A stretch of DNA of 64,000 nt from Deminuibacter soli (GTDB lineage Bacteria > Bacteroidota > Bacteroidia > Chitinophagales > Chitinophagaceae): positions 62,001-126,000 of the forward strand of contig NZ_QTJU01000002.1 of the NCBI RefSeq assembly GCF_003412455.1, read 5' to 3'. This document shows, piece by piece, positions 9,694-35,969 of the stretch (position 1 is the first letter of the stretch; each line of letters opens with the position of its first letter). Under the pieces are notes generated by a model, which saw only the letters and a program-made list of their open reading frames with translations, had not been told where the DNA came from and did no database searches. The translations under genes were made by a program, and so were the position numbers.

Positions 9694-9700
9694 GTCAGTA

Positions 9701-12163: not shown

Positions 12164-12225
12164 GTCGCGAAATTGAAAATGATTGTTGAGTTGCCTGATT
12201 GTTCTATGGTTGAATATTGTTATTT

Positions 12226-12272: not shown

Positions 12273-12288
12273 ATTGAACCATTTCCGG

Positions 12289-14121: not shown

Positions 14122-14162
14122 ACGTTGCTGATAAAAGTGTTTATTGATGAAAAGCGGAAGGT

Positions 14163-14197
14163 AAAGAAATGCCACATCAGTGACATGGCATTTCTTT
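14163..14197 (-). terminator. hairpin between the surface-lipoprotein and enzyme genes
   Basis: Arms AAAGAAATGCCA (14163-14174) and TGGCATTTCTTT (14186-14197) pair perfectly with an 11-nt loop. It lies 8 bp after the stop of the DUF3823 gene. The T-rich 3' arm could give partial termination, lowering enzyme gene expression relative to susCD. Confidence 0.6.
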
Positions 14198-14204
14198 CAT
14201 TTAA

Positions 14205-14900
14205 CTACAAGGGAATTTGCTGAACAGAGCCATACAACAGATCTTCCACGCCCTGTATTTTAACAGCGATACGTGCAAATACGTATTTCTGCGGGGCTAC
14301 GTTTGGCGCAGCCAGGGTAATGGTAATATTGTTGGGGTCAGTGATATCGCCGCCGTTAATGCTGGCAGAAGCCAGCGGGTTGGCATTGGATGCAAACTGT
14401 GTTTTGTCAACAAACAGTACTACGCGTTCAATACCTTTTGCATTGGCATCGGTGATAATCTGCTCTGCTTTAAAATTAGCCGTGAGCGTTCCGCCGCTGT
14501 TGGTAATTTTTGCATTGCGGATCATGTAGAACGGTGTAACCTCGATGTTGATGTGCTGGCTTCCGTTCATGGTAATGGATAAGCTGTCGGGTGCGCCGGC
14601 AGGTGTTTGCGGCCACATAAACGGTCCCTGCCCGTTAGGGATAATGAACTTGTAGTTGCCGTTAAACAGCAGCTGGCTCATGTTGCCGTCGGGTGCAAAA
14701 GTGCCGTCAATAGAACCTGTTTTACCAAAACCGAACTGGTACAATTGGTAAGGCACCTGGTTATATTCAACGCCTACCGTATCGCCTTTATACAACAGGG
14801 TGCCTGTGAGCGATGAACTGGGTGGCGCATAGTTGTCTTTTTTGCAGGCAAATGCAGTAAGCATTACACCAGCGAGCAGACTATAAGATAGAGATTTCAT
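14205..14900 (-). CDS. DUF3823 surface lipoprotein (SusE/F position)
   Basis: Lipoprotein of 231 aa placed directly after susD, where SusE/SusF-like glycan-binding lipoproteins normally sit. The start at ATG 14900 gives the signal MKSLSYSLLAGVMLTAFAC with the lipidated Cys followed by KKD. The next part matches the DUF3823 pattern (LTGTLLYKGDTVGVEYNQV, FNGNYKFIIPNGQGPF). The C-terminal half is predicted beta-sandwich (IERVVLFVDKTQF, YVFARIAVKIQG). It probably helps capture oligosaccharides at the outer surface. There is a 21-bp gap from the susD stop, consistent with one operon. A strong hairpin follows. Confidence 0.85.
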   Translation of the reverse strand: MKSLSYSLLAGVMLTAFACKKDNYAPPSSSLTGTLLYKGDTVGVEYNQVPYQLYQFGFGKTGSIDGTFAPDGNMSQLLFNGNYKFIIPNGQGPFMWPQTPAGAPDSLSITMNGSQHINIEVTPFYMIRNAKITNSGGTLTANFKAEQIITDANAKGIERVVLFVDKTQFASNANPLASASINGGDITDPNNITITLAAPNVAPQKYVFARIAVKIQGVEDLLYGSVQQIPL

Positions 14901-14921
14901 AACAAACAATTTAAAGTGAAC

Positions 14922-16829
14922 TTACTGGTTGGGCTGCCTTACAATTTTCGGGTTGGCAGAGCGTACATCGTCGCCGATGAAAGAATAATAGTTGCCCAGC
15001 TGGAAACGGTTTACACCGGTAACAGGCGATGGCAATACTTCTTTATACAACCACTTGCCATTGTTGGGGCTGCCGGGGTTGTAGTATTTGTATGGCCACA
15101 AACCCCAGGGCTGTGTGCTTTTTTTGGTAGCGCTGCCGATATTGCTGAGCAGGTCTGCCTTAGAGGTTGGTGTACCATCCCATACGGCTGTAGCAAGGCG
15201 CCAGCGTTTCATATCATATAACTGGTGGCCTTCAAAAGCCAGTTCTACACGGCGTTCGTGCACAATGCGGTCGAAGGTGATTTCACCCGTAGTTAATGGT
15301 ATAGTTAAGCCGGCCCTTGCGCGTACCTGGTTCATGTATAAGGCTGCAGTGTTCATATCGCCCAGTTCAAAAGCTGCTTCTGCTGCATTCAGCAATACTT
15401 CAGCAAAACGGTAGCGGATGAAGGCCACATCACTGCCACGTCCCCTGCGGCCTGAACCCACCTGGGGATCGAGCCATTTGCGGATGTAGAAGCCGGATTG
15501 TGTTCTCAGTTCCAGACCGCCAATAGGGCCGTCGTTACCCACTACCTGTATCGGCGTTGTGGTGCCGGGTAATGGTTTCTGGTTGGTGGCGTTGTCGCTG
15601 GTGAAAATGCTGCCGTCTGCCAGTACATAACCTGCCCAGATATCTACGGTATTGCCTTTGAATTTGCTGCCGGGGATAATCACCGTGCCTTCGAGGCGGG
15701 CGTCGCGGCCTGCAAATATTTTCTGCAGTGTATCGTAGTAAATAGGATTGCCGGCACCGTCAACTGTAGGCAGCGGGGCATAGGTATTGTCGAGCTTTTC
15801 AAACGCTTCCACGAAGTTCAGCGAAGGGTTCAGCCTGCCTGCGTCACCACCTTCATCAGAGAAGGAGTAAGGCTGGTCGTTGGTGGTAAACGCATGTGTT
15901 TTACCGCCGTTCACTTTAAAGTCTTCGATGAAGATAGATTCCTGGTTTACGCTTGATTTGTCGAGGAAGATAGCGGTGAAATTATCAGCAAGGTTAGGCA
16001 GTACCTGGTACAGTTTGTATGCACCTGCTTCGCCGTTAATGAGCGACTGTGCTGCTTTCAGCGCTTTCTGGTAATAGTCTGCTGCTTTTGAAGAAGGAAT
16101 GCCTACTTCGCCGCCCGGTAAAGAAACCGCAGGTGTGTTGGCACCGTATTTGGCGATAGAGCCTGCATACAATGCAGCCCTTGCTTCCATGGCGAGTGCA
16201 GCCCCTTTGGTTGCGCGTGATTTTTCGTTTACATCGGCTGGCAGGTCATTCTTGATCGCTTCAGCCTCGCTGATCACGAAATCATAGATATCCGATTCTT
16301 TGGCCCTGGCAGATTGCAGGTAAGAAGGATCGCCTTTGAAATCATAATCGAGCGGTGTTAAAATCAAAGGCACACCACCCATGCGTTTAGCCATTTCAAA
16401 GTAAAAGTTGGCGCGCAGGAAGCGGCCTTCCGCGAGGAAGCGTTTTTTATCGTCGGCGGTGAGCTCTTTTGAAGCACTGTCGCGCTGGATAAACAGGTTC
16501 AGGTCGCGGATGTAGTGATAGGCATCGCTCCAGTTTACGCCCCACTGGCTGTAGTCCCAGCCTGTACGGTTCACGTAAAAGTAACTGCCGTTTTCGCTGG
16601 GAAAGCTTTCGCTGAAATCGGTAAAGCTTGACCAGCCATTGTCGAGGCCTGAGAAATCGAGCTGCCTGTTGTACAGGTCACCTGCAACGGCCAGCACCAG
16701 TGCCGGGTCAGAGAAGGTAACATCTGAAGGCAGTACCTGTATAGGTGGTATATCGAGGAATTCACTCTCTTTTTTACAACCGGCAAACAGCGCCATCACC
16801 GGTAATGCAATGAATAGTATCTTTTTCAT
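14922..16829 (-). CDS. susD: SusD/RagB outer-membrane glycan-binding lipoprotein
   Basis: Surface lipoprotein of 635 aa that acts as the lid of the SusC transporter and binds the target glycan. The ATG at 16829 gives MKKILFIALPVMALFAGC followed by KKES, a clear lipobox. TPR-like helices of the SusD fold are visible (RFLAEGRFLRANFYFEMAKRMGGVPLI), and the C-terminal signature FIRYRFAEVLLNAAEAAFEL plus ERRVELAFEGHQLYDMKRW is canonical RagB/SusD. It follows susC by 24 bp. It is longer than many SusD proteins (about 500-550 aa), with a large central insertion around residues 240-420. Glycan specificity is not readable. Confidence 0.96.
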   Translation of the reverse strand: MKKILFIALPVMALFAGCKKESEFLDIPPIQVLPSDVTFSDPALVLAVAGDLYNRQLDFSGLDNGWSSFTDFSESFPSENGSYFYVNRTGWDYSQWGVNWSDAYHYIRDLNLFIQRDSASKELTADDKKRFLAEGRFLRANFYFEMAKRMGGVPLILTPLDYDFKGDPSYLQSARAKESDIYDFVISEAEAIKNDLPADVNEKSRATKGAALAMEARAALYAGSIAKYGANTPAVSLPGGEVGIPSSKAADYYQKALKAAQSLINGEAGAYKLYQVLPNLADNFTAIFLDKSSVNQESIFIEDFKVNGGKTHAFTTNDQPYSFSDEGGDAGRLNPSLNFVEAFEKLDNTYAPLPTVDGAGNPIYYDTLQKIFAGRDARLEGTVIIPGSKFKGNTVDIWAGYVLADGSIFTSDNATNQKPLPGTTTPIQVVGNDGPIGGLELRTQSGFYIRKWLDPQVGSGRRGRGSDVAFIRYRFAEVLLNAAEAAFELGDMNTAALYMNQVRARAGLTIPLTTGEITFDRIVHERRVELAFEGHQLYDMKRWRLATAVWDGTPTSKADLLSNIGSATKKSTQPWGLWPYKYYNPGSPNNGKWLYKEVLPSPVTGVNRFQLGNYYSFIGDDVRSANPKIVRQPNQ

Positions 16830-16853
16830 CGTAATAAAATTTAACAGGGTCAA

Positions 16854-19800
16854 TTAAAAAGTAAGGTTGACGCCAAAGTTGATCACCCTGCTTTGAGGAA
16901 ACTGTAAACCGTTGTCGTCGATTACTTCCGGATCAATGCCATACTGTTTCAGGTTATCGAACGAGAACAGGTTGTAACCATTCACGTAAAACCTTGCACG
17001 TTGTATACCTGCTTTCTTTGTAATAGCTGAAGGAATGGTATAACCGATTTCGATGGTACGTGCCCTGAGTGAAGTGACATTGTGTGTCCAGAAGGTGTTG
17101 GTTACAGGATTGTTGCCGTCGAGCGAGTAATCGCTGTGGCTGGTACCCGGGTTAACCCTGTTTGGCGGGTATTTACCAGGAATCCAGGCACTGTTCGGAT
17201 CAAGCGGGTTGGCCCTGTGCCACCTGTCTTCAAAAATGGAGTTCAGGTTACCGTTGTTCTGGAATGCCCAGCGCATTTCCCAGTTCTGGTACCAGCTGTA
17301 ACCTGCAGCACCGGAGAAGTCGGCATGAAAATCAAATCCTTTGTAAGCAGCGCCGATGGTGAAACCAAAGTTCATTTCAGGCTGTGCGCCGTAACCGTAA
17401 CCGATAGGGCGTGTATCCTGATAGTTGATTTTACCGTCGCCGTTCAGATCTGCATAAATCAAATCACCGGGCAGCAATGTTTTGTTGCCTTTACCGTCGA
17501 TGTTGATTTTGTAGTTGTTGATCTGGTCCTGTGAAGTAAACTGTCCTGTAACAGTATAACCCATTGCATAGTTGTTCAGGCGGTTTTCCTGAGAGCTGTA
17601 GTACTGATCCAGTGAGTTAAAGAAGATGGGGTTATACGAATGCAGGAATTTAGAACGTACGATAGAGAAGTTACCACCTACATTAAAGTTCACTTTGTTA
17701 ATGTGACCATTGTAGTTCAGTGAAAACTCAGCACCATATCTTGCGTCGCTTCCAAGGCTTTCGCTGGGCAGGCTGTAGCCGGCTTCCAGGGGCAGCTGTA
17801 CGTCGTTTTTAACACCGGGTAAGCCGGTACGTTTGCGGTAGAAATAATCTACTGTACCGTTCAGGTGGCCTTTCAGCAAGCTGAAATCCATACCCACATC
17901 TGTCATCCTGCTTTTCAGCCAGGTAATACCGGTTGAAGGCAAACCTTTATCAGCAGCAACAGTTACTGAGTTACCGTCGATGATGGCTGTACCTACGTTG
18001 TAGTTATAACCGGGCAGGTAAGAGTAAGGTGTTACAATGGGCTGAGTGGCATCAGTGAGCGAGCGGTCGTCACCCGTTAAGCCATAAGAAGCCCTGAGTT
18101 TGATATCGGTGATGATATCGATCCTGTTATGCAGCAGGCTTTTAAACCAGGGTTCTTCTGTCATACGCCAGCCGGCAGATACACCGGGGAAATAACCCAC
18201 CCTGTGGCCGGGTGCAAACAGGTAAGATGCATCCCTTCTGATGGTTCCGTCGATGAAATAAGTGTTGGCGTAGTTGTAGGTAAGGCGACCGATATAACCG
18301 ATACGCGTTTCTTCTGTCTGGCTGTCCTGGTACTGGTCAGCAGTAGGGAAGTAAATCAGCGGCAGGTTATTCGATACAGGTGAAGCGTGTATCCAGTTAC
18401 GGGTGTAGGTGCTCCTGATTCTTTCTGCAACTACGGTAGCGCCAACGGTATGTTTGCCGAAGGTGTTGTTGTAATTGAGCTGCAACTGTGCGTTGGTGTT
18501 GATTTGTTTAATCTGCTCACGTTCGCGCCATGGGTTGGTACTGCCGCCTGTTACGTTGTAGGTAGAATCTGCTTCGTTGTAGGTATAGGCTTTGTAAGTG
18601 TACTCGGTATTGTTCAGCAGGTAGTCTGAATAAAAATACGAGTATACACCACGCAGGGTTAAACCTTTAACGTGCGGGATATCCAGGTCAACGTGGAAAA
18701 TCGGGTTGATTACCCTCTTGTCGCTGCGGTAGCGGCCAGACAGTGATTCGTTCAGGAACGCATAGTTGGATTCAGGGTGACCGGTATTGTTGAGATAAGC
18801 CGGGTTGTCGTTGGCATACGGGCGTTCGAGCGGGGTATTGCGCAGTACGGCAAAACGTGCCAGGAAGTAGTCATCCAAACCAGGTACACCCGGGTTTTCG
18901 TAGCTTTCGATACGGCCATTGATGTCCATACCTGCTCTTAAACCGGTAGCCAGTTTAGCGGTGACGTTAGACTGGATATTGCTTCTGTCGAACTTGTATT
19001 CTTTACCCAGTACAGAGTTCTGGTGAAAGTTGCTGCCCGATACATAGTAGCTTACCTTGTCTGAACCACCGTTAATGCTGATGTTGATAGAGTTCTGCGG
19101 CGCGTTGTTATTGCTCATTACATACTTGCGCCAGTCGAAGCTGCGGTATTGCTTACCTGCGCTTGCACCCTGTTTGTATTTGTCCAGTTCTTCCTGTGTA
19201 ATGCTGGTGCTGCCGTTGCTGTTTACCTGTGCTTCTGCGAGGTAACGCATGTAATCGTACGAGTTGTTCACCACATTCGGGAAGCGGAACCATTGCTGGA
19301 AGCCTGCATATGCATCAACATTGATGTTATTGCGGCCAACAGCGCCTTTTTTGGTGGTAACTACCACCACACCGTTACCGGCGCGCACACCGTAAATGGC
19401 GGCTGCAGCATCTTTCAGTACAGAGATGTTTTCGATATCGTTTGGTGAAATGTTGTTAAACTGGGAGGCATCCTGCTGGATACCGTCAATTACATACAAT
19501 GCTGCACCCATGTTGCGGATTTGTATGTTGGCAGCGGCGCCGGGGCGGCCATCTGCCATACGGAAAGTAACGCCGGGGAGTTTGCCCGCAAGTGTAGAAC
19601 TCACCGTTGCACCGGAGTGTACGCGTTCAATGTCTTTGCTGGTAACCGAGACAATCGCGCCGGTAACGGCTGTTTTTTTCTGCGTGCCATAACCCACCAC
19701 GATCACATCACTTAAACCCGCATTTTCAGTGATCATAGCAATGGTGTATGCGCTGGAGCCATTGAGCTGCTGCTCAAAAGGCCGCATACCGATGTAGCTG

Positions 19801-20084
19801 AAGGAGAGCTTCGTATCGGCAGCAGCAACTTTTATGGAAAAAGCGCCGGTTTCATTGGTAACCGTTTTCTTTTTGGATGAATTGGCAGTGACTGTTACGC
19901 CTTGTAATGGTTTGCCTGTTGAATCTGTTACCGTACCGGTAACGGTGGTTGTTGTTTGAGCCTTACCCGCCAGGGTAAACAAAAAGGCAAACAACAGCAG
20001 TAAGCAGCTTTTAAGTAAAGGGGTCGCACCCGGCAGCAAAATTTTCTGTCGCCGCTGCGCGAATAAGTGCAAGCAATGTTTCAT
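16854..20084 (-). CDS. susC: SusC/RagA TonB-dependent outer-membrane transporter
   Basis: TonB-dependent transporter of 1076 aa that imports oligosaccharides with the SusD partner. After the signal peptide lies a carboxypeptidase-D-regulatory-like domain (VTGTVTDSTGKPLQGVTVTA), a TonB box/SusC signature (SDVIVVGYGTQKKTAVTGA), the plug (IQIRNMGAALYVIDGI, ISVLKDAAAAIYGVRAGNGV) and a 22-strand-type barrel ending in FPQSRVINFGVNLTF. The plug motif reads AAAIYGVRAGNGV where the usual form is ATAIYGSRGANGV. It is the first structural gene of the LacI-controlled PUL; the leader of about 200 nt contains the operator at its promoter end. Confidence 0.97.
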   Translation of the reverse strand: MKHCLHLFAQRRQKILLPGATPLLKSCLLLLFAFLFTLAGKAQTTTTVTGTVTDSTGKPLQGVTVTANSSKKKTVTNETGAFSIKVAAADTKLSFSYIGMRPFEQQLNGSSAYTIAMITENAGLSDVIVVGYGTQKKTAVTGAIVSVTSKDIERVHSGATVSSTLAGKLPGVTFRMADGRPGAAANIQIRNMGAALYVIDGIQQDASQFNNISPNDIENISVLKDAAAAIYGVRAGNGVVVVTTKKGAVGRNNINVDAYAGFQQWFRFPNVVNNSYDYMRYLAEAQVNSNGSTSITQEELDKYKQGASAGKQYRSFDWRKYVMSNNNAPQNSINISINGGSDKVSYYVSGSNFHQNSVLGKEYKFDRSNIQSNVTAKLATGLRAGMDINGRIESYENPGVPGLDDYFLARFAVLRNTPLERPYANDNPAYLNNTGHPESNYAFLNESLSGRYRSDKRVINPIFHVDLDIPHVKGLTLRGVYSYFYSDYLLNNTEYTYKAYTYNEADSTYNVTGGSTNPWREREQIKQINTNAQLQLNYNNTFGKHTVGATVVAERIRSTYTRNWIHASPVSNNLPLIYFPTADQYQDSQTEETRIGYIGRLTYNYANTYFIDGTIRRDASYLFAPGHRVGYFPGVSAGWRMTEEPWFKSLLHNRIDIITDIKLRASYGLTGDDRSLTDATQPIVTPYSYLPGYNYNVGTAIIDGNSVTVAADKGLPSTGITWLKSRMTDVGMDFSLLKGHLNGTVDYFYRKRTGLPGVKNDVQLPLEAGYSLPSESLGSDARYGAEFSLNYNGHINKVNFNVGGNFSIVRSKFLHSYNPIFFNSLDQYYSSQENRLNNYAMGYTVTGQFTSQDQINNYKINIDGKGNKTLLPGDLIYADLNGDGKINYQDTRPIGYGYGAQPEMNFGFTIGAAYKGFDFHADFSGAAGYSWYQNWEMRWAFQNNGNLNSIFEDRWHRANPLDPNSAWIPGKYPPNRVNPGTSHSDYSLDGNNPVTNTFWTHNVTSLRARTIEIGYTIPSAITKKAGIQRARFYVNGYNLFSFDNLKQYGIDPEVIDDNGLQFPQSRVINFGVNLTF

Positions 20085-20306
20085 AATGCAAGTTTTTGTT
20101 GGTAGTAAATGGAGGCTAGCCGAAATAGCCCGGTAGTCTTTTTAAAAGGAAATCTTCAGGGTTCATTACATACGCATCAGGTTTAATTTTAATAAATGGT
20201 TTTAGCAATTGTTGTATTGACAGTAATTCCGGTCTTCACGGCATTACAGGCCACCGCGGTGCCCATTTTGTTAGCTGAGCAGGCAAAAAACTGCACATTA
20301 TAAAAA

Positions 20307-20324
20307 TGTACAATCGATTGCACA
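20307..20324. promoter_or_regulatory. LacI-type operator in the susC promoter
   Basis: TGTACAATCGATTGCACA is an almost perfect 18-bp palindrome with the central CG typical of LacI-family sites. On the minus strand it lies inside the spacer between TTGTG and TATAATGTG, so a bound repressor would block polymerase. A closely related copy lies in front of lacI. Confidence 0.8.
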
Positions 20325-20346
20325 AAACAGGCTAAAAAACAATGTT

Positions 20347-21381
20347 TTAACCTTGTGATTTTAATACCATGGATGACTGGCGCACCTGTAACAGCGGTTC
20401 GAGAATCACATTGATCTTTTTTAAACCGTCATTCTTTTTGTCATCCATTAATTTCAGTAATAATGCGAACGCCTCTTTCCCCATTTGCACCGTTTGCTGG
20501 TCAATGGAGGAAAGCGCAGGGCTGATGTGCTCATCGAATGATTCGTTCGCAAAGCCAATAATGCCAAGCTGTTCGGGGATACGAATGTTCTTTTCTTTCG
20601 CGGCTTTAATTACGCCGAGGGCTGTAAAATCTTCTACCGCGAAAATGGCGTCTGGAGGGTTGGTTAGCCCGGTAAAGTATTCCATGGCGTCTTTGCCCGA
20701 TTGGATGGATACGCTACCGCTGTATATCAGTGTCTCATCGGGTGTAATACCTGCAGCCTGCAATGCAGCCAGGTAACCGTTGAGCCGGTCTCTGAAAATT
20801 TTAAGGTGCTGTTGCCCGGAAATATGTGCAACCCGCTTGTAGCCTTGCTTCAGCAGGTGTTCGGTGGCAATGTAGCCACCCTTGAAATCATCTACCAGTA
20901 CAGCGGGAATGTTCAGCATATCCTGGCTGCGGTCAAAGAAAACCAGGGGAATACCCTTGTTGCGCAGGTTCAGGTAATGCGAAAAATCGTGTGTATTCTT
21001 GGCAATGGAAGCCAGTATCCCGTCTACACGCACATCGGTAAAGGTTTCAATGGCTTTCTGCTCGTACTGCTCCGATTCATTGGATTGGTATAACAGGATG
21101 TTGTACCCGTATGTACTGGCAAGGCTTTCAATACCATGCACTACAGAGCCAAAGAAGTTGATTTCTGCACTGGGTATAATAACACCGATGATATTGGTTT
21201 TGCCAAGCCGTAAGGAGGAAGCCAGCCTGTTGGGGCGGTAATTGAGTTTCTCTGCCAGTTCAAGAACGGTTTTCTTGGTACTGTCGCTGATGCGCGGATG
21301 GTTATTCAAAGCCCTCGACACAGTTCCTGTGGTGAGCTTGAGCTGTTCAGCCAGATCTTGTATGGTAACTTTTCGTGACAA
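20347..21381 (-). CDS. LacI-family transcriptional repressor of the PUL
   Basis: One-component sugar-responsive repressor, 344 aa. The N-terminal HTH (KVTIQDLAEQLKLTTGTVSR, ALNNHPRISDST) and hinge helix (NYRPNRLASSLRLGKT) are canonical, followed by a periplasmic-binding-protein-like sensor (NIIGVIIPSAEINFFGSVVH, DGILAS, DFKGGYIATEHLL, AIFAVEDFTALGVIKAA). No ATG is in frame upstream before a stop, so translation appears to start at TTG 21381, which aligns with the usual LacI start. It ends 263 bp before the susC start. A palindromic operator 7 bp upstream suggests autoregulation. The effector is probably a sugar released by the PUL enzymes. Confidence 0.94.
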   Translation of the reverse strand: MSRKVTIQDLAEQLKLTTGTVSRALNNHPRISDSTKKTVLELAEKLNYRPNRLASSLRLGKTNIIGVIIPSAEINFFGSVVHGIESLASTYGYNILLYQSNESEQYEQKAIETFTDVRVDGILASIAKNTHDFSHYLNLRNKGIPLVFFDRSQDMLNIPAVLVDDFKGGYIATEHLLKQGYKRVAHISGQQHLKIFRDRLNGYLAALQAAGITPDETLIYSGSVSIQSGKDAMEYFTGLTNPPDAIFAVEDFTALGVIKAAKEKNIRIPEQLGIIGFANESFDEHISPALSSIDQQTVQMGKEAFALLLKLMDDKKNDGLKKINVILEPLLQVRQSSMVLKSQG

Positions 21382-22161: not shown

Positions 22162-24744
22162 ATGAAAACGATTACCTATCTGTGTTTTTTTGTCTTCTTT
22201 TTTACAACGAGCTATTCTCAGTCATACGGGTTGCGCTTTTACAGTCATGAAGTAGTACAGGAAAAACGAACATCTCTCAATTTAACGCCCGCGGCGCCGC
22301 TTTGCTTAAAGGATGAAGCGGATATTTCGTTCGATTTTAATTTCACACCCAATCATGAGATTTACTTCGGTTATATTGTGCGTATTATTACGGCGGCGAA
22401 TCTCAACATCGATTTAATTTATAACCAGCGGGAGCGCAATTTCAACTTCGTGGTGGGGGAGCGGTTGTCGCATGTGTTTACGATGGATTCGGTTACGCTG
22501 TTTGAAAAATGGAACCACTGCAATATTCACCTCAACCGCAAAACCGGTGAAATCAGCTTCTCCCTTAACCAGCACCGTATCAGCAGCGACCGGGTGCAGA
22601 TGGGCAATAATTGCTGCAAGCTGTTTTTCGGCACCAATAATTACGAGGGGTTTCAAACGGTGGATATTCCGCCAATGAATATCCGGGATATCCGCATCAC
22701 CGAAAATGGTGTGCTTACGCATAACTGGCCGCTGGATGAAACATCGGGCAACCAGGGTAAGGACCAGGTGCAGGGCGGCATGGCGCAGGTAACGAATGCG
22801 GAGTGGATTAAAACGCGTCACCAGAACTGGGAACAGGCGCAAACCCTGCACATTGCCGGCAACCCGAGCATTGCATTTGACAAGGAAAATGAACGCTTGT
22901 ATATTATAGCCACTGATTCATTGTATACGTTATCGTTTAAAAGTCCGGGTGTGAGTGCCGTGAAGCTTTCGCAGCCGCATGATACTTTGCTGCCGGGCAA
23001 CCAATCGGTATACAACCCGTATACGCACAGCCTGCATAATTTTTATATCGATCAGCGGCAATTCAGTACCTACAATTTTGCTGCCCGCCGCTGGGATGCG
23101 GGGGCTGCACGGGATATTTTAACGGTGTACTGGCAGGCGAATAAATTCATCAGCAGTACCGATACTGCTTTATATATACTGGGTGGCTATGGGCAAATGA
23201 AATATAAAAACGAGGTGCAGCGTTACCATATTGCCACGCACCAGTGGGACAGCATTGCCACGGGCGGCGATTATTTTATGCCGCGCTACCTGGCTGCACT
23301 TGGTACCAATACTGCGGGCGATACGGCTTATGTAATGGGTGGTTATGGCAGCTACAATGGTAACCAGGTAATGAATCCCAAGTATTATTACGACCTGCTG
23401 GCTTTTGATGTGCGGCACCACAGTTTTAAAAGGCTGTACCATTTAAAGGAACCGGACAAACAGTTTTGTTTTGCCAATAGCCTGGTGATTGATGAAACCG
23501 AACATGCCTATTACGGGTTGATTTACCCGAAAGACCAGTTTAACAGCACCCTGCAATTAATAAAGGGCTCACTCCATTCACCCGAATACCAGTTACTCGG
23601 TGCCACCATACCTTACCAGTTTCATGATGTGCAGTCGTTCGCGGATTTGTTTTATTGTTCATCAGGTAAAAAGCTGGTGGCCGTAACCCTGTACACCTCC
23701 AAAGAACAGGTGACCAGCATAAATATTTACACACTTGATTTTCCACCCAATGCTGTTGAGGCTACTTCACCGGCTGTACCTGTACCGGGTAAATTCCCCC
23801 TGGGTTACCTGCTGGCATCCCTGGCGCTGGCGGCAGCAGGTTTTGTTGCCTGGAAACTGCTGAAGGCAAAAAGCAAACCGGTTGTTGCATCCCTCACACC
23901 GGTGGGTATTGCAACACTGCCGGTACATGATACGGGTATTACTCCTGTAATACATGACGCGCCACCGCCGGTTGCGGTACATGAAACTGCAGAAGAGTTG
24001 GCAGCTGAAGCGGAAGTAACTGCACCGGCCAAATCACGCGTGTGCCTGTTTGGCCAGTTTGAGGTGAATGATAAAACCGGGGCAGACTGTACGCGCCAGT
24101 TTACGCCTTTGCTGAAAGAAATGTTCCTGCTGATTTCGATCTATACCCTGCGCTCGGGCAAGGGCGTTTCATCGGAAAAACTGTATGCCACTTTGTGGAA
24201 AGACAAATCGAGCAAGGATGCGCAGAATAACCGCTCGGTAAATATGGTAAAGCTGAAAGGCATACTCGACAAGCTGGGCAACTGCAATATTGCAAAACTG
24301 GGCGACCGCTGGGTGCTGCAATATGAAACTGCTGACCTGGATATTGATCTCGCCCTGTTTTTTGAACTGGAACAACACGGCGGTTCACTCAACCACAAAC
24401 AGGTGCGCCGCCTGCTGCAGTTATTGTCGCGCGGCAATTTTTTATACGATACCAGTTATCCCTGGCTGGAGGATATTCAATCTGAAATTTCGGGTAAGGC
24501 GCTTAACCTGCTCTCCGAGGCGCTGGCACGGTTTCATAGTGATCCCGGTTTTCTGCTGGAAATTGCCAACAGCATTTTCCTGTTCGACCCGGTGAACGAG
24601 GAAGCGCTGCGGGTGAAATGCAAGAATCTGAGCCTGCTGGGGCGGCATTCTATGGCGAAGGCGGTTTTTGAGAAGTTTGCAAGGGAGTATCAGCATATGT
24701 ATGGAGAGGAGTTTCAGCAGAGTTTTCATGAGGTGATGGGGTGA
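22162..24744 (+). CDS. transmembrane one-component regulator: LamG/Kelch-like sensor with cytoplasmic SARP-type DNA-binding domain
   Basis: An 860-aa protein that seems to join outside sensing to transcription in one chain. A signal peptide (to about residue 19) leads to a LamG/concanavalin-like beta sandwich (about 45-205), then a Kelch-like propeller (about 225-530; LYILGGYGQMKYKNEVQRY, AYVMGGYGSYNGNQVMNPKY). One TM helix lies at about 547-565 (LGYLLASLALAAAGFVAW). After a Pro/Ala linker comes an AfsR/SARP-type winged helix at about 625-720 (VCLFGQFEVN, KEMFLLISIYTL, VSSEKLYATLWKD, NNRSVNMVKLKGIL) and a BTAD-like helical region to the end. There is no kinase or receiver domain. It stands directly before susC of the second PUL, whose upstream region carries SARP-box-like repeats, so it is the likely activator. 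The ligand is unknown. Confidence 0.85.
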   Translation: MKTITYLCFFVFFFTTSYSQSYGLRFYSHEVVQEKRTSLNLTPAAPLCLKDEADISFDFNFTPNHEIYFGYIVRIITAANLNIDLIYNQRERNFNFVVGERLSHVFTMDSVTLFEKWNHCNIHLNRKTGEISFSLNQHRISSDRVQMGNNCCKLFFGTNNYEGFQTVDIPPMNIRDIRITENGVLTHNWPLDETSGNQGKDQVQGGMAQVTNAEWIKTRHQNWEQAQTLHIAGNPSIAFDKENERLYIIATDSLYTLSFKSPGVSAVKLSQPHDTLLPGNQSVYNPYTHSLHNFYIDQRQFSTYNFAARRWDAGAARDILTVYWQANKFISSTDTALYILGGYGQMKYKNEVQRYHIATHQWDSIATGGDYFMPRYLAALGTNTAGDTAYVMGGYGSYNGNQVMNPKYYYDLLAFDVRHHSFKRLYHLKEPDKQFCFANSLVIDETEHAYYGLIYPKDQFNSTLQLIKGSLHSPEYQLLGATIPYQFHDVQSFADLFYCSSGKKLVAVTLYTSKEQVTSINIYTLDFPPNAVEATSPAVPVPGKFPLGYLLASLALAAAGFVAWKLLKAKSKPVVASLTPVGIATLPVHDTGITPVIHDAPPPVAVHETAEELAAEAEVTAPAKSRVCLFGQFEVNDKTGADCTRQFTPLLKEMFLLISIYTLRSGKGVSSEKLYATLWKDKSSKDAQNNRSVNMVKLKGILDKLGNCNIAKLGDRWVLQYETADLDIDLALFFELEQHGGSLNHKQVRRLLQLLSRGNFLYDTSYPWLEDIQSEISGKALNLLSEALARFHSDPGFLLEIANSIFLFDPVNEEALRVKCKNLSLLGRHSMAKAVFEKFAREYQHMYGEEFQQSFHEVMG

Positions 24745-24960
24745 TCGTGAGTGGTCAGTGGTGAGTGATTGCAGCGGGGGGATCGCTGGTGAATAGTGAA
24801 TAGGCAATAGTGAATGAACTTGGCGAAGGATTGGAGCGGAGATTAGTTGCCGGTGAGGACACCGGGCAACGGCATTGGTGGGGATGACCGGAGCGGAGGT
24901 TTGTTGCGGTGAGGACACCGGGCAACGGTGTTGGAGCGGAGGGTGGCTGTGGGAAGACTT
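24745..24960 (+). repeat. REP-like tandem hairpin repeat cluster
   Basis: Begins at the stop codon with GTGAGT-rich sequence, then GTGAATAGTGAATAGGCAAT and AGTGAATGAACTTGGCGA. Two hairpin units follow, 24846-24870 (GTTGCCGGTG, loop AGGA, CACCGGGCAAC) and 24903-24926, each preceded by GGAGCGGAG. A third GGAGCGGAG starts a truncated unit. Related copies occur at 33424 and 50445. Confidence 0.75.
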
Positions 24961-24992
24961 TTTTCTTTTAAATTATCCTATTAATGCAGTTG

Positions 24993-25022
24993 TTAGGGCA
25001 TAATTAGGGCTTTTGTTAGGGG
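24993..25022 (+). promoter_or_regulatory. three TTAGGG direct repeats, SARP-box-like, upstream of susC
   Basis: TTAGGGC at 24993, TTAGGGC at 25004 and TTAGGGG at 25016 are spaced 11 and 12 bp, one helical turn, on the same face. The last is followed after 9 bp by CTATTTGC, a -7-like element. SARP activators are known to bind heptamer direct repeats at 11-bp multiples with the last about 8 bp from the -10 box. Confidence 0.6.
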
Positions 25023-25065
25023 GGCGATTGCTATTTGCAGTCAGTAAACCGAACAATTGCTTTAT

Positions 25066-28000
25066 ATGAAAAAACTGCTACTGCTGTTTTTGTTCTGCAC
25101 CTTATTGCTGCAGGGCATGGCCCAGCGACCAACTGCGAAAGGGAAAATTACCGGTGACGATGGCAAACCCCTTGCCGGCGCATCGGTTACTGTAAAAGGA
25201 ACCAACCGCTCTGCTGTTACAGACAGCACCGGCCAGTTTGAGGTCTCAACGGGCAACCAGGCCAACCCGGTACTGGTAATTACTTATATCGGATACGTTA
25301 GCCGCGAGTATGCGGTAAGCGGCACATCTGATGTCTCCATTCAACTTCAATCAGAAAACAAGGCGCTTAATGATGTAATTGTGGTGGGTTATGGTACCCA
25401 GCGCAAGCGCGATGTTACCGGCGCCACCAGTACCGTGAAGGCCGAAGAAATTTCCAAACGGCCGCTGGTAAGGGTTGAGCAGGCGCTGCAGGGCACCACT
25501 CCCGGTGTAAATGTGCAGAGCAACAGCGGCCAGCCAGGTACCGGTTTGAGCGTGCGTATCCGCGGCGCCAATTCCATTACCGGCAGCAACGACCCGCTGT
25601 ATGTGATTGATGGGTATATCGGCGGCAATATTGAATCGATCAGCCCGTCGGATATCGAATCGCTCGAAATCCTGAAAGATGCCTCGGCTACGGCTATTTA
25701 TGGTTCAAGGGGCTCAAACGGTGTGGTGCTTATCACTACCAAAAGCGGTAAGGATGGTAAAATGCGCGTAGATTTTAACCCCTGGTTCAGCAAATCGGAA
25801 ATACCCAAAAAGCTGAAGCTGATGGATGCCTACGATTTTGCCAACGCGGTAAATGCACAGTATGCCACCACCGGTCAGCCCGCAGGTTTTACCGATGACC
25901 AGCTGCGCCAGCTGAAAGCCACCGGCGGTACCGACTGGCAGGATGCCGTGCTGCGCAAACCCTGGGTACAGAACTACCAGCTGAGTGTATCGGGCGGCGC
26001 ACAGAATGTGCATTACCTGTTTTCGTTCAACCATCTTGATCAACCCGGTTTGCTGCTGAACCAGTATTACAAACGCACCACGCTGCGCGCCAATATTGAT
26101 GTGAAAGCGAATGACCGTCTCGATCTTAAATTCAATATCACCGCCTTGTTGCCCAATAGCCGCAACAACGGTTACCAGGGTGATATTACCGACCCATTTG
26201 CGCAGGCATTTCAATGGGACCCCACCACGCCTATCCGCGACAGCGCAGGCAATTATATCCTGAAATCTAAATTCGGCAGCAACCAGATAAACCCGGTAGC
26301 GCAGGCCAATAACCAGCTGGATGATAACAGCAGCACCGATGTTACAGGAACAGGCGTGCTGACTTACCGCATCTTAAAAGGACTTACGTTTACCTCGAAC
26401 AATACGTATGAGTTTAACAACGGTTACGGACAGTCAGTATTTGGTCCGCAAACCTCGCTGGGCCTTGTTGGTGCAGATTATGCCGAAACGCGCGCCAGCA
26501 AATCGCGCACCTTCCAGAACAGTAATTTCTTAACGTACCAGACCAGGTTTGGTGATCATGCGCTTACGGTGACTGCCTTGTATGAGCAACGCAAGTTTAC
26601 TTCCATGTCGTCGAATGCAAGGGCCGTAAACCTGTCGACCTATTCGCTGGGATACTACAATCTTGGTTTGGGTGCAACGCAGAAAACAACTTCGGGTTAT
26701 GTATCCGATGCATTACAATCGTATATGGGCAGGGTGAACTATTCGTATAAAGACCGGTACCTGTTAACAGCCAGTGTACGTTCAGACGGCTCATCACATC
26801 TTACCCAGAAATACAGCACTTTCCCCTCTGTGGCATTGGGCTGGAATGTAGCGCGTGAAAGCTTTATGGAAAAAGCGGGTTGGATCTCTGACTTAAAACT
26901 GCGCGCCAGTTATGGTGTAACCGGCAACCAGGCTGTTGCTGCCTATGCTACTATTCCGCAGATAAATTCAGGCACACAGGGTCCTAACCAAACACTGGGT
27001 TATTATTACGATGGATCAACACTTACCATTGCCACTTCACTGGGTGCGCCTGTTGCGCAAAGCCTGAAATGGGAAAACAACAAAGCAGTAGATCTTGGTC
27101 TGGATGCGGCCTTCTTCAAAGGCCGTCTTACCCTGGCAGTAGATGCGTATCATAAAAAAATCACCAACCTGCTGTATAATTACCAGGCACCTTTCTATTT
27201 GGGCGGCGATACCTATGCGCGTAACATCGGCAGCATGGAGAACAAGGGTATTGAGTTTGCCGTTGGCGGTACACCGGTGCAGGGCAGGAATTTTAAATGG
27301 ACCAGCAACCTGACTGTTTCTTTCAACCGCAACAAGGTGCTTAACCTTGGTGGGTTAGACAGTGTGGTGGTGAACAATATCGGTTCTGCACAAACGGGTG
27401 AAGCCATCCTGATTGCAGGCAAATCGCTCGGTGCGTTTTACGGTTACCAGTTCCAGGGCACCTGGAAAGCCAGCGAAGCAGCTGAAGCCGCTTTGTTTGG
27501 TATGAAACCCGGTGATTCAAAATATACTGATGTAAACGGTGACCATAAATATACCAGCGCCGATTTAATGAACATCGGTAATGGTACGCCCAAGTACTCG
27601 TTCGGATTTATCAACGACTTTACCTATGGCAATTTCACGCTGAGTGTAATGTTCCAGGGAACACACGGCAACCAGATTTATTCCGGCACCTTCCCGTATA
27701 CATTCGGCGGACTGGGTGATGCGCGCAATGCCACCAACCAGGACATCATGAACGTATACACAGCGAAGAACGAAACCAATATACCCACGTTTGCCACGAG
27801 CAGCCAGAACTCTATCAACAGCAGCCGTTATGTATATGATGCCAGTTATGTAAAACTCAAAAACCTGCTGATCTCGTACCACCTGCCCGAGCAGCTGGTG
27901 AAACAAATAAAAATGCGTAACGTGGAAATATATGTAAGCGGCCAGAACCTGTTTACCATTACGCATTACCCGGGTTACGACCCTGAAGTATCCAACGCCA

Positions 28001-28095
28001 ATTACGGCCAGTATCCTGCCATTACGCAGGGGCTGGAGACAGGCGTTATTCCTAACCCCAGAACCTATACCATTGGATTGCGTGCAGGTTTTTAA
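25066..28095 (+). CDS. susC: SusC/RagA TonB-dependent transporter of the second PUL
   Basis: TonB-dependent transporter, 1009 aa from ATG 25066 (MKKLLLLFLFCTLLLQGMAQ signal). The N-terminal regulatory domain (AKGKITGDDGKPLAGASVTV), SusC signature (LNDVIVVGYGTQRKRDVTGA), plug (VRIRGANSITGSNDPLYVID, LKDASATAIYGSRGSNGVVL) and barrel ending in PRTYTIGLRAGF are canonical. It should import oligosaccharides produced by the GH99-like, GH92, GH3 and GH95 enzymes encoded downstream. It is preceded by SARP-box-like repeats and followed after 47 bp by susD. It is not close in sequence to the SusC at 16.9-20.1 kb, so the two PULs did not arise by recent duplication. Confidence 0.97.
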   Translation: MKKLLLLFLFCTLLLQGMAQRPTAKGKITGDDGKPLAGASVTVKGTNRSAVTDSTGQFEVSTGNQANPVLVITYIGYVSREYAVSGTSDVSIQLQSENKALNDVIVVGYGTQRKRDVTGATSTVKAEEISKRPLVRVEQALQGTTPGVNVQSNSGQPGTGLSVRIRGANSITGSNDPLYVIDGYIGGNIESISPSDIESLEILKDASATAIYGSRGSNGVVLITTKSGKDGKMRVDFNPWFSKSEIPKKLKLMDAYDFANAVNAQYATTGQPAGFTDDQLRQLKATGGTDWQDAVLRKPWVQNYQLSVSGGAQNVHYLFSFNHLDQPGLLLNQYYKRTTLRANIDVKANDRLDLKFNITALLPNSRNNGYQGDITDPFAQAFQWDPTTPIRDSAGNYILKSKFGSNQINPVAQANNQLDDNSSTDVTGTGVLTYRILKGLTFTSNNTYEFNNGYGQSVFGPQTSLGLVGADYAETRASKSRTFQNSNFLTYQTRFGDHALTVTALYEQRKFTSMSSNARAVNLSTYSLGYYNLGLGATQKTTSGYVSDALQSYMGRVNYSYKDRYLLTASVRSDGSSHLTQKYSTFPSVALGWNVARESFMEKAGWISDLKLRASYGVTGNQAVAAYATIPQINSGTQGPNQTLGYYYDGSTLTIATSLGAPVAQSLKWENNKAVDLGLDAAFFKGRLTLAVDAYHKKITNLLYNYQAPFYLGGDTYARNIGSMENKGIEFAVGGTPVQGRNFKWTSNLTVSFNRNKVLNLGGLDSVVVNNIGSAQTGEAILIAGKSLGAFYGYQFQGTWKASEAAEAALFGMKPGDSKYTDVNGDHKYTSADLMNIGNGTPKYSFGFINDFTYGNFTLSVMFQGTHGNQIYSGTFPYTFGGLGDARNATNQDIMNVYTAKNETNIPTFATSSQNSINSSRYVYDASYVKLKNLLISYHLPEQLVKQIKMRNVEIYVSGQNLFTITHYPGYDPEVSNANYGQYPAITQGLETGVIPNPRTYTIGLRAGF

Positions 28096-28142: not shown

Positions 28143-29687
28143 ATGCGCTCAACATATTTTATTTCCATTACCTGTTCGGTTGTGCTGGCCATTACAGGCT
28201 GCCAGAAACTGGACGAAGATCCCAAGGCAAGTTTAACACCGGTTACGTATTTTAAAACGCAGAGCGACCTGGATGCTGCGCTGGCCGGGGTTTACGAACA
28301 ATATTCCTTTGACGGGGCCTACGGTTTCACCAGCCGTATGACATCTTATTTCGGTTCGGATGATTTAACAACCGACCCGGGTTTGAACAAGGCAGACATG
28401 CGTGACTTTGACCGCCTGAATGGTGGCAGCGCCAACAACAATATGGTTGCACAATGGCAGGGGCCGTGGAAGGCGATTTACCAGGCCAATAACGTACTGG
28501 CCAACTATGAAAAAGTAAGTACGGGTGATGAACAGAAACGCCAGGCCGCAGGGCAGGCGCTGTTTTTACGTGCATGGGGCTATTATAACCTGGTGCGTAC
28601 CTTTGGCCCGGTGCCGCTGATTACAACACCTATTAGTGCAGATGCACGCCCGCCAAGGGATTCAGTAAGCAAGATCTATGCTTCCATTATCAGTGATCTG
28701 CAAACAGCAAAAAGCTGGCTGCCCGAATCGTTCAGCGGGCAGCCCGGTAAAGCCAACCAGTTTGCCGCACGCGCCATGCTGGCCGATGTATACCTTACCA
28801 TGACAGGCTGGCCTTTAAACCAGAGCAATTATTATGCTTCGGCAGCTGCGGAAGCCGATACAGTGATACGCTCCGGCAAATTCAACCTGAGTACACCCTA
28901 TGCACAGGTATTCACCACCAACAATACACCGGAATCTATTTTTGCCTTACAGTTCAATGTTAGCGGAGGCTTGCCGCAGCGCAGTTTCGGCTCATCATCT
29001 GTACCGCTGGATGAAATAGCGCTCGACGGCTCAGGCGGTTGGGATGATTACTACCCGGAGATTAATTTTTACCTCAACGCACCCAAATGCTCCCGCACAG
29101 ACGCAACATTTTATACCACTATCAAACTGTTGCAAAGCGATAACACCTATAAGCTGGTTCCCTGGAATTCAAGTGAAACACATGCAGGGCATCCTTACTT
29201 TAAAAAGTTCAGATCTGGCCTGAATGGGGATGGTGTGAAAGAAACAGAAACCACCATTCAATCCATCAATCCCAGCACCAACAAGGCTTTGGACATTATC
29301 CGTTACCCGCAGGTATTACTGGATTACGCAGAAGCAGTCGCCATGTCGGGCAACGGCCCAACCGGCGATGCCTATGCTGCCATTAACCAGGTGCGCCAGC
29401 GTGCAGGCTTACCGGCATTAACCGGCGGGCTGGATAAAACAGCTTTCCGTGATTCGGTGGTATATGAAAGAGCGTATGAATTTGCGGGTGAGTTTGGCAT
29501 TCGCTGGTTTGATATTGTTCGCCTGCAATTGTTGCCACAGGTGATAGCAGCCAGAAGTCCGCTGGAAAACCAGATACCCGGCACCACGAGTGGCAGTCCC
29601 ACCGTGTTGCAGCAGAAATACCTGTCGCCCATACCGTTTAACGAAATGCTGCGCAACCCGCAGTGGGCGCAGAACACAGGCTATTAA
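28143..29687 (+). CDS. susD: SusD/RagB lipoprotein of the second PUL
   Basis: Surface glycan-binding lipoprotein, 514 aa, of usual SusD length. The signal MRSTYFISITCSVVLAITGC ends in a lipidated Cys followed by QKLDEDPKA. Helical repeats include RQAAGQALFLRAWGYYNLVR (with FGPVPLIT) and the C-terminal signature IRYPQVLLDYAEAVAMSGNG with VYERAYEFAGEFGIRWFDIV. It is paired with the SusC just upstream and followed after 23 bp by the GH99-like gene, which indicates one operon. Confidence 0.96.
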   Translation: MRSTYFISITCSVVLAITGCQKLDEDPKASLTPVTYFKTQSDLDAALAGVYEQYSFDGAYGFTSRMTSYFGSDDLTTDPGLNKADMRDFDRLNGGSANNNMVAQWQGPWKAIYQANNVLANYEKVSTGDEQKRQAAGQALFLRAWGYYNLVRTFGPVPLITTPISADARPPRDSVSKIYASIISDLQTAKSWLPESFSGQPGKANQFAARAMLADVYLTMTGWPLNQSNYYASAAAEADTVIRSGKFNLSTPYAQVFTTNNTPESIFALQFNVSGGLPQRSFGSSSVPLDEIALDGSGGWDDYYPEINFYLNAPKCSRTDATFYTTIKLLQSDNTYKLVPWNSSETHAGHPYFKKFRSGLNGDGVKETETTIQSINPSTNKALDIIRYPQVLLDYAEAVAMSGNGPTGDAYAAINQVRQRAGLPALTGGLDKTAFRDSVVYERAYEFAGEFGIRWFDIVRLQLLPQVIAARSPLENQIPGTTSGSPTVLQQKYLSPIPFNEMLRNPQWAQNTGY

Positions 29688-29710
29688 ACTTTTCAATTTT
29701 CAGCATCTAC

Positions 29711-30991
29711 ATGAAACAAGGCAAATGGAAGCTCACAGCGTTGGCGTTATGCGCCACGCTGCTGGCTTCAGCACAGGTAAAACACAGCAGCGAAACATTG
29801 TATCCCACCTATAAAGGGCTTGTGATGGCCGGCTACCAGGGCTGGTTCAGGGCAGCGGGCGATGCATCGGGATCAACCCACTATGTATATGGTGATGAAC
29901 ACCGCAGCGGTATTGATGTATGGCCCGATGTAAGCGAGTATGAAAAAACATACGCCACCACTTTTACACAACAGGATGGCAAACCTGCACGCTTTTTCAG
30001 CTCGTACGATAAAAGCACGGTAGACCTGCATTTTAAATGGATGCAGCAATATGGTGTGGATGGTGTTTTTATGCAGCGCTTTTTCGATAACACACGGGAA
30101 GGCAGCAGGGGAAAGCAGGAATCGTCTGTGATACTGCAGAACGCAATGGATGCAGCTTCCAAATACAAACGCGCTATTGCGGTGATGTACGATTTATCGG
30201 GCCTGCATGCAAAAGGTGAGGACTGCTCTGCGATTATGGAAGACTGGAAATACCTGGTAGACCAGCTGAAAGTAACCAGCCGTGCCAATAACACCTACCT
30301 GCAGGAAAACGGCAAACCTGTTGTGGCTATCTGGGGTATTGGCTTCCCTGACAGGCCGTATGATATCCGCAACATAGGACTGGAGCGGCTGATAGACTTC
30401 CTGCACAACGACCCTGTATACGGGCATTGCACCGTACTGCTCGGCGTACCCAACAGCTGGCGCGAACTGAATGCAGACTGCATACACGATCCCTACCTGC
30501 ATGGCATTATTAAACAGGCCGATATTATACTGCCGTGGAGCGTGCAGCGCTTTTCACCCTTACTGCACAACGATATGGACCGGTTTCGCGATCAGTTGAT
30601 CGCTGATATGGATTGGTGCAGGCAAAACAAGATACAGTATGTGCCTTGTGTGTATCCCGGCTTCAGCTGGCATAACCTGAGCATGCACGAATTTCCTGAT
30701 GATATAAAACCTGTAGGTTCCATACCCAGGCAGCGTGGCCGGTTTTACTGGCAAATGCTCAGCACCGCGATACAATCAGGTGCTGAAATGTTGTATGTAG
30801 CCATGTTTGATGAAGTAAATGAAGGCACGGCCATTTTTAAATGCAGCGATAACCCGCCGCAGGGAAAAGAGGTGTCGTTTTTATCTATGGAAGGTGTGCC
30901 CAATGATTTATACCTGAAACTCACCGGCGAGGCGGCAAAAATGCTGCGCAGGGAAAAACCGCTGCAGCTGAATTTCCCTGCTAAGTTATAG
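29711..30991 (+). CDS. GH99-like (GH71/99-type) secreted glycosidase
   Basis: Secreted 426-aa protein starting at ATG 29711 (MKQGKWKLTALALCATLLAS signal). The barrel contains GLVMAGYQGWF, STVDLHFKWMQQYGVDGVFM, AIAVMYDLSG and YVPCVYPGFSW. Near the C-terminus MFDEVNEGTAIF matches the GH99 pattern NEWHEGTQIE, placing Glu368 and Glu371 at the 3-residue spacing of the two catalytic glutamates of endo-alpha-mannosidases. The family is often labelled xylosidase/arabinosidase or DUF in databases. Next to a GH92 alpha-mannosidase, an endo- or exo-acting mannosidase role is reasonable but unproven. The gap to the next gene holds an ACAAAG repeat. Confidence 0.75.
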   Translation: MKQGKWKLTALALCATLLASAQVKHSSETLYPTYKGLVMAGYQGWFRAAGDASGSTHYVYGDEHRSGIDVWPDVSEYEKTYATTFTQQDGKPARFFSSYDKSTVDLHFKWMQQYGVDGVFMQRFFDNTREGSRGKQESSVILQNAMDAASKYKRAIAVMYDLSGLHAKGEDCSAIMEDWKYLVDQLKVTSRANNTYLQENGKPVVAIWGIGFPDRPYDIRNIGLERLIDFLHNDPVYGHCTVLLGVPNSWRELNADCIHDPYLHGIIKQADIILPWSVQRFSPLLHNDMDRFRDQLIADMDWCRQNKIQYVPCVYPGFSWHNLSMHEFPDDIKPVGSIPRQRGRFYWQMLSTAIQSGAEMLYVAMFDEVNEGTAIFKCSDNPPQGKEVSFLSMEGVPNDLYLKLTGEAAKMLRREKPLQLNFPAKL

Positions 30992-31156: not shown

Positions 31157-31180
31157 ATCGTATTGATAAATGCATTATTC

Positions 31181-35885: not shown

Positions 35886-35969
35886 TGAGTTGTGAGTGAA
35901 AGCGGAGATATGGCATGGGGAAGAACATGCGCGCCAGCGCTTTTAATAAAACATCAAAAGCTTTTACGG

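Follow-up and report, generated by a model that had tools for sequence, protein, structure and literature searches.

The window studied here, a stretch of 64,000 nucleotides from Deminuibacter soli (contig NZ_QTJU01000002.1), contains at 22162-24744 an open reading frame (ORF), already located there by a first-pass annotation of the DNA, whose product, P0001, is very probably a membrane-anchored, one-component activator that uses a SARP-type domain to control the adjoining polysaccharide utilization locus (PUL), with an array of direct heptads as its operator. What we have computed is the architecture of the protein, the SARP-type fold of its C-terminus, the family to which it belongs, the association of this family with susC genes and their relative orientation, and the array itself, with its spacing and its place before a −7-like promoter element. 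The array beside the regulator gene is a candidate operator, predicted from the DNA pattern, and was not part of the first-pass annotation.

The ORF is not a chance reading, because full-length relatives exist in many genera (Chitinophaga, Segetibacter, Paraflavitalea, Pinibacter, Pedobacter, Mucilaginibacter, Larkinella, Spirosoma and others), and the observation of the first-pass annotation is confirmed. The protein is present in 28 of the 294 genomes searched in its taxonomic family, counting its own genome, which holds a single copy of the regulator at the thresholds used. Scanning of genome contigs yielded 494 candidate stretches; 443 were confirmed, and 80 loci were kept. The collection consists of 107 distinct regulator ORFs, those identical in the last 200 residues being counted once; 103 of them (W, L069, L083 and L125 were excluded), with the window added by its own reference, form the alignment of 104 sequences referred to as A2. 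ORFs shorter than 780 residues were dropped from the counts of transmembrane (TM) helices, arrays, glycoside hydrolase (GH) neighbours and clusters.

The assignment of the C-terminus rests mainly on its predicted structure. The first-pass annotation had proposed for this region a winged helix with the AfsR/SARP pattern and a BTAD-like end, and the model predicted separately from A2 (predicted local distance difference test, pLDDT, of 95.4) agrees with it: an OmpR-type winged helix is followed by a BTAD-like domain, the fold match extends over the whole chain, and the only strong matches are SARPs. The six best Foldseek rows are all AfsR and EmbR (E from 7.8e-7 to 7.7e-6; AfsR 7.8e-7, EmbR 1.7e-6, both domains covered), while the next row, unrelated, has an E of 0.041. 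With VIA the match is Z = 15.7 for AfsR (rmsd 4.9, 227 residues) and Z = 14.9 for EmbR (rmsd 4.7, 231 residues), again over both domains, and the row that follows drops to Z = 8.0. The link at the level of sequence is indirect and runs through intermediates. When the family C-terminal profile was run over 395 genomes of the phylum, matches were obtained in 25 of them, the own genome included; 14 matches are remote Bacteroidota proteins of other architectures (E to 1.1e-11, or to 9.8e-14 in a smaller set). In all seven of the 14 that were scanned BTAD (PF03704) is above the cut-off, within receiver-BTAD, STAND-TPR-BTAD, BTAD-TPR and BTAD-TM-TPR layouts; three closer relatives in the same Pfam scan gave no BTAD. 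A joint profile of the family and this remote group recognizes AfsR (2.8e-12) and EmbR (8.6e-8) over both domains. Two residues of AfsR that contact bases, T88 and R92 (PMC10936776), align in our reading of the joint-profile alignment with V693 and K697 of P0001, of which the former is invariant in A2 and the latter conserved in at least 90% of it.

Several results weigh against this assignment. Pfam and NCBIfam detect Kelch alone in P0001, with no DNA-binding family, BTAD or Trans_reg_C. Among individual members the Pfam matches to BTAD (12 of 104) and Trans_reg_C (11 of 104) are weak, and the unrelated family OST_P2 weakly matches 16 of 104, a count at least as high as either; in the smaller alignment A1 introduced below, BTAD is found in one of 35 members (Pfam, E up to 0.1). 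The family C-terminal profile on its own reaches no SARP among the PDB sequences, its best match being of PhoB type with an E of 0.55. In the search with the joint profile an engineered TPR repeat protein outranks AfsR (4.9e-13, summed over repeats), and the match to AfsR is not independent of the BTAD proteins, because the profile contains them. The failure of Pfam to see the SARP part concerns its detectability and not a biological trait. Overall, a SARP-type C-terminus is supported by the predicted fold and by the bridge of intermediate sequences. As a separate observation, an 801-residue protein at another locus (L223:7954-10356, minus strand) matches the SARP profile with BTAD in its N-terminal part (5-224), which is followed by a TM helix (295-313) and TPRs: it is a membrane SARP with the opposite domain order.

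The full-length AlphaFold2 model of P0001 was obtained from alignment A1, whose 35 sequences are that of the window and those of 34 among the 39 fetched loci, and has a mean pLDDT of 84.8. It displays in succession a helix (2-14), a beta-rich region (about 23-211), a propeller (224-531), a TM helix (547-568), a low-confidence linker (570-621), a winged helix and an all-helical domain. The Kelch-like part expected from the first-pass annotation is recovered by sequence models and by fold: Kelch_6, Kelch_3 and Kelch_1 exceed the Pfam cut-offs in P0001, Kelch models match all 35 family members (Pfam, E up to 0.1), and the propeller resembles Kelch domains with Z = 22.4 (VIA, full model), the list for the full model being occupied by Kelch chains and uninformative on the SARP part. 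The LamG-like label given to the first domain fares less well. In the model the domain is a beta sandwich, but Laminin_G_3 was found at the same E limit in 3 of the 35 members (best 3.3e-5), P0001 not among them, and a profile of the N-terminal domain had no match in the PDB sequences; the label is weak, and what the model suggests is more safely called a lectin-like sandwich. The single TM helix, previously put at about 547-565, is seen at the expected place in 94 of the 104 full-length members with a hydropathy cut-off of 1.6; one member has another segment passing the cut-off between the N-terminal segment and this helix, and Lys and Arg are more common after the helix than before it in 101. 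On these counts, the TM helix and an orientation with the N-terminus outside and the C-terminus inside hold through the family. For the signal peptide there are helix 2-14 in the model and an N-terminal hydrophobic segment that passes the same cut-off in 73 of the 104 members, but falls below it in P0001 itself.

A winged helix in the predicted C-terminal fold and an enrichment of relatives next to susC had both been named as checks on the first-pass annotation. Both are present, and its interpretation is supported. The family is located beside susC/susD genes, as SusR-like regulators are. Counts were based on 105 regulators, after dropping the split-ORF loci L069 and L083, of which 81 have both 6-kb flanks; as controls we used 87 long ORFs in 40 random 20-kb stretches of genomes of the same set, drawn from 20 contigs, none of them from the contig scan that gave the 80 loci. 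The queries were two susC proteins of the window, with which distant susC may be missed. Within 6 kb, 62 of the 81 loci have a susC that points away from the regulator, 5 have one that points towards it, and 65 have one in either direction, as compared to 12, 19 and 28 of the 87 control ORFs. Within 1 kb the numbers are 37 away and none towards out of 94, versus 11 and 14 out of 237 controls. With one representative for each cluster of 50% identity, 17 of 22 regulators have a susC pointing away and 1 of 22 has one pointing towards them. In the window the operon continues from susC to susD, a GH99-like gene, GH92, GH3 and GH95, and relatives of these enzymes recur at the family loci: GH92 in 56 of 103 (3 of 40 in controls), the GH99-like enzyme in 50 of 103 (0 of 40), GH3 in 21 of 103 (1 of 40), and GH95 in 7 of 103 (3 of 40). 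GH92 and GH99 act on alpha-mannosides, and GH92 and GH99-like genes each occur at roughly half of the family loci; as far as gene content can tell, the signal is therefore likely to be alpha-mannan or high-mannose glycans.

Direct repeats were sought because SARPs use them. In 40 intergenic regions upstream of a susC adjoining a regulator we counted exact 6-mer direct repeats, treating every offset from 8 to 35 alike and using 10 shuffles for the expectation. Repeats are in large excess at offset 11 (24 found, 4.0 expected), 12 (40 and 4.7) and 22 (22 and 4.2), and at background level at offsets 10 (3 found) and 13 (4 found). The repeat unit has the core TTA(A/G), often with C as the seventh base, giving TTA(A/G)NNC heptads every 11-12 bp; arrays hold three to five units, with steps that are mostly 12-11-12, 11-11, 12-12-12 or 11-12-12. 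In the window the order is regulator gene, array, TATTTG, and the susC ATG at 25066. If a chain is defined as three or more TTA(A/G) at steps of 11 or 12, the 104 family loci, 2.06 Mb in all, contain 254 strand-wise matches (TTAA arrays being counted on both strands), of which 157 are no more than 800 bp from the regulator, and random loci totalling 0.80 Mb contain 9. Of the 104 regulator genes, 82 have a chain within 800 bp, versus 7 of 260 control ORFs; after clustering at 50% identity the count is 15 of 24 regulators. Chains are also found upstream of 42 of the 72 linked susC (ORFs below 600 residues and upstream regions below 400 bases being omitted), while 50 shuffles gave a mean of 0.52 and a maximum of 3 out of 72; other pairs of steps gave 0 to 3, and 13 in the case of two neighbouring pairs that share 11 or 12. 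None of the 19 susC in random loci has a chain upstream, and on this count, of 19 genes only, we discarded the view of the array as a promoter element common to susC genes in general.

Counted from where the last repeat of the array starts, the element TA[ACT]TT occurs at +14 to +22 in 27 of 42 cases, with 2.0 expected. In 28 of the 42 the TA element begins 15 or 16 nt after the final heptad begins and 8 or 9 nt past the point where that heptad ends. The Bacteroidota −7 consensus, TAnnTTTG, was found upstream of susC in 2 of the 40 regions, the recurring element being one or two bases shorter. In the 5.8-Mb genome a strict pattern of three TTARNNC with 4-5-nt spacers, written with the window array among its examples, occurs once, between the regulator and susC, and its reversed control not at all. 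SARP operators as described in PMC10936776 and PMC5930380 consist of direct repeats set at intervals of one or two helical turns near the −10 element: the repeats are spaced 11 or 22 bp, the 3' repeat lies about 8 bp from the −10 element, and the operators of PimR consist of three heptads with 4-nt spacers (PMC5930380). With steps of 11 or 12, spacers of 4-5 nt and a TA element 8 or 9 nt away, the array, at the level of the DNA pattern, follows these published rules both in spacing and in promoter distance.

There is also evidence that argues against the array as operator of the adjoining PUL. Smaller excesses of repeats are present at offsets 14, 15, 20 and 23 (z 3.1-4.3, 10 shuffles). No chain was found within 800 bp of 22 of the 104 regulator genes, nor upstream of 30 of the 72 linked susC, and no susC was detected within 6 kb at 16 of the 81 regulator loci; several of the loci lacking a chain carry looser repeats. 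The susC within 750 bp of the regulator, which were used in discovery, have a chain in 27 of 38 cases, but the held-out ones, farther than 750 bp, in only 15 of 34, and chains are present at 4 of 6 susC in the other orientation within family loci. Finally, three loosely defined TTAR units yield 46 strand-wise matches over the own genome, where their reversed control yields 30, and were rejected as a specific operator signature on these numbers. Two other features of the arrays may be mentioned here. Five loci (L031, L071, L073, L126 and L140) have two arrays each, one soon after the regulator and another that begins about 43-100 bp ahead of a susC lying 3-5 kb farther along, which may suggest joint control of two operons. 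In the window, the gap that separates regulator and array contains two copies of a 22-base stretch (24851-24872 and 24907-24928).

In the mechanism that we propose, the lectin-like and Kelch domains would bind, in the periplasm, an oligosaccharide (probably an alpha-manno-oligosaccharide) that derives from the PUL substrate. Binding would alter the single-TM protein, most likely by gathering monomers, or by reorienting them, and the cytoplasmic SARP domains, on their flexible linker, could then bind cooperatively and side by side to three to five heptads, approximately one per helical turn. The array would take the place of the −33 element, immediately before the −7 element from which the susC operon is transcribed, and the bound SARP domains would recruit RNA polymerase in the way known for AfsR. 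The main rival to this scheme concerns the transmission step. The same regulator and operator could be served by regulated proteolysis, in which a ligand, or the lack of one, triggers cleavage in or near the TM helix and frees a soluble SARP domain that activates the PUL, and such a route would suit both the long, variable, low-confidence linker between the two and the occurrence of the SARP part as a separate ORF at L069 and L230 (in the latter case 271 residues with no TM helix). Retention of the TM helix in 94 of 104 members speaks against it, and we consider proteolysis unlikely.

Since the DNA binding of the Kelch-SARP protein is a prediction, one may also ask whether the array serves another factor, such as a LacI protein or a sigma factor, with the Kelch-SARP protein regulating something else; in the window a LacI regulator gene does lie about 0.8 kb upstream. 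Yet LacI relatives occur in 6 of 103 family loci and in 3 of 40 control loci, whereas the array accompanies the regulator across many genera (82 of 104 versus 7 of 260), has the spacing and the promoter distance published for SARPs, and is present in its strict form a single time in the own genome, where the regulator too has a single copy. These facts make a different factor very improbable. Repression, with the SARP domain covering the region upstream of the −7 element until ligand binding releases it, would be compatible with the position of the array, but AfsR and PimR, the SARPs compared here, are described as activators that bind such repeats, and we regard a repressor as quite improbable. 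The coordinates of all features are collected in Table 1.

Table 1. Features of the window, with positions counted from its first nucleotide.
Feature	Position	Strand	Basis or remark
Regulator gene, 860 residues (P0001)	22162..24744	+	periplasmic beta-sandwich and Kelch propeller, TM helix, cytoplasmic SARP-type domain
N-terminal signal sequence, residues 1-20	22162..22221	+	model helix 2-14
Beta-sandwich, lectin-like domain, residues 21-215	22222..22806	+	AlphaFold2 model
Kelch beta-propeller, residues 218-531	22813..23754	+	Pfam and fold match, Z 22.4
Single transmembrane helix, residues 547-568	23800..23865	+	model and hydropathy
Cytoplasmic linker, residues 569-621	23866..24024	+	low model confidence; variable across the family
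OmpR-type winged helix, residues 622-721	24025..24324	+	predicted fold; presumed recognition helix 684-705
BTAD-like helical domain, residues 726-859	24337..24738	+	predicted fold and joint profile
Candidate operator, four direct heptads	24981..25022	+	starts 24981, 24993, 25004, 25016; steps 12, 11, 12
−7-like promoter element TATTTG	25032..25037	+	16 nt after last heptad start
susC-like TonB-dependent transporter	25066..28095	+	likely ATG start 25066; ORF listed from TTG 25057
susD-like lipoprotein	28143..29687	+	
GH99-like enzyme	29663..30991	+	Pfam match spans profile positions 236-337 of 341
GH92 alpha-mannosidase	31163..33433	+	
GH3 enzyme	33612..35885	+	
GH95 enzyme	35892..38438	+	
Second cluster, FG-GAP/UnbV	6038..9565	−	
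Second cluster, GtaA-like	9701..12163	−	
Second cluster, GH2	12289..14175	−	
Second cluster, DUF3823	14205..14909	−	
Second cluster, susD	14922..16853	−	
Second cluster, susC	16854..20084	−	
LacI regulator adjoining second cluster	20347..21381	−	about 0.8 kb upstream of the Kelch-SARP gene

Elsewhere in the window there is a second PUL-like cluster, divergent from the first (6038-21381, minus strand); the region upstream of its susC yielded no TTA chain. Among the family loci a few depart from the usual gene arrangement. At L229 (about 8628-13119, minus strand) and L238 (about 8666-13157, minus strand) two family regulators of 853 and 683 residues stand in tandem with overlapping ORFs; at L229 the 853-residue regulator has Kelch and its 683-residue neighbour is without a Pfam match, and it is possible that such pairs form a heteromer. 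The SARP part appears as an ORF of its own at L069:8683-11303 (245 residues, overlapping the sensor ORF) and at L230:10158-10970 (271 residues, no TM helix), and at L231:9365-10456 a 364-residue ORF combines it with a TM helix but has no sensor; these could be split genes, frameshifts or real soluble partners. Proteins with a GDSL lipase and TPRs (L071:12641-14716 and L132:20255-22291) are encoded near two distant family members.

Control of PULs is best known from gut Bacteroides, where it is exerted by hybrid two-component systems, SusR and sigma/anti-sigma pairs. The membrane-anchored SARP family would represent a further route in other Bacteroidota, and because its operator, promoter geometry and substrate class are predicted, its regulon can be listed by sequence search. 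A broader proposition, which we hold to be rather probable, is that membrane-anchored SARPs form a widespread class which, throughout Bacteroidota, controls PULs for alpha-mannan and related ones by means of a shared heptad-array operator, and that the way in which SARPs read DNA (one protomer per helical turn, next to the −10 or −7 element) is conserved between Actinomycetota and Bacteroidota, although their promoters differ, and can be placed under the command of a periplasmic sensor. If this is true, arrays would allow regulons, and through regulons ligands, to be read directly from genomes. The P0001 family would also place SARPs outside their usual setting and provide, for engineering, a simple device leading from a periplasmic sensor to DNA. 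The first-pass annotation knew of no described member, and our own literature search, which left subscription papers and preprints outside its scope, found among the papers listed none that describes a membrane-bound SARP, SARPs at PULs, this sensor or this operator.

These results can be set beside the systems already known. P0001 shares with AfsR of Streptomyces and EmbR of Mycobacterium the succession of winged helix and BTAD, with a fold match over both. The AfsR and PimR SARPs of the papers cited are soluble Streptomyces proteins, whereas the corresponding domain of P0001 is C-terminal, anchored in the membrane, joined to a periplasmic sensor and found at PULs; the heptad core of PimR is CGGCAAG, that of the family array TTA(A/G). 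ToxR and CadC resemble P0001 in having an OmpR-type winged helix linked to the membrane by one TM helix in a one-component protein, and the DNA-binding domain of CadC is in the fold list for the C-terminus (5ju7, Z 7.0, VIA); unlike in P0001, however, their DNA-binding domain is N-terminal and they are not known to have a BTAD. The hybrid two-component systems of Bacteroides PULs similarly place a periplasmic sensor and PUL control in one polypeptide (PMC3878776), but kinase, receiver and AraC domains were not found in P0001 by Pfam or in the model, which sets it apart from them. Bacteroidota have many transmembrane transcription regulators, single chains defined by a DNA-binding domain together with one or more TM regions (PMC10269533), and P0001, with its predicted DNA-binding fold and TM helix, belongs among them. 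The survey that described them detected DNA-binding domains with Pfam models, and its main text contains none of the words SARP, BTAD and Kelch (PMC10269533). A survey of membrane regulators based on Pfam may miss the family, because Pfam is blind to its DNA-binding part.

The sensor of SusR is not known to be a LamG/Kelch pair. In other respects the SusR-like regulators of Bacteroides, such as BT3705 and BT3091, are similar to P0001, in that periplasmic sugar sensing and a C-terminal DNA-binding end are combined in one chain, often encoded beside susC/susD genes and accompanied by direct-repeat motifs (PMC3878776). SusR binds maltose in the periplasm and has a putative helix-turn-helix near its C-terminus, but this DNA-binding end is described as resembling no known type, and the predicted repeats are 67 or 77 bp apart, unlike those of the P0001 family (PMC3878776). 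The first-pass annotation had presented a ToxR-like layout with SARP parts as a further mode of PUL control; given the one-chain precedent of SusR (PMC3878776), the layout alone is not new. Sensing in the periplasm and direct binding to DNA by one chain at a PUL are known from SusR as it is described there, and what appears to be new is the SARP output, the lectin-like/Kelch sensor and the operator.

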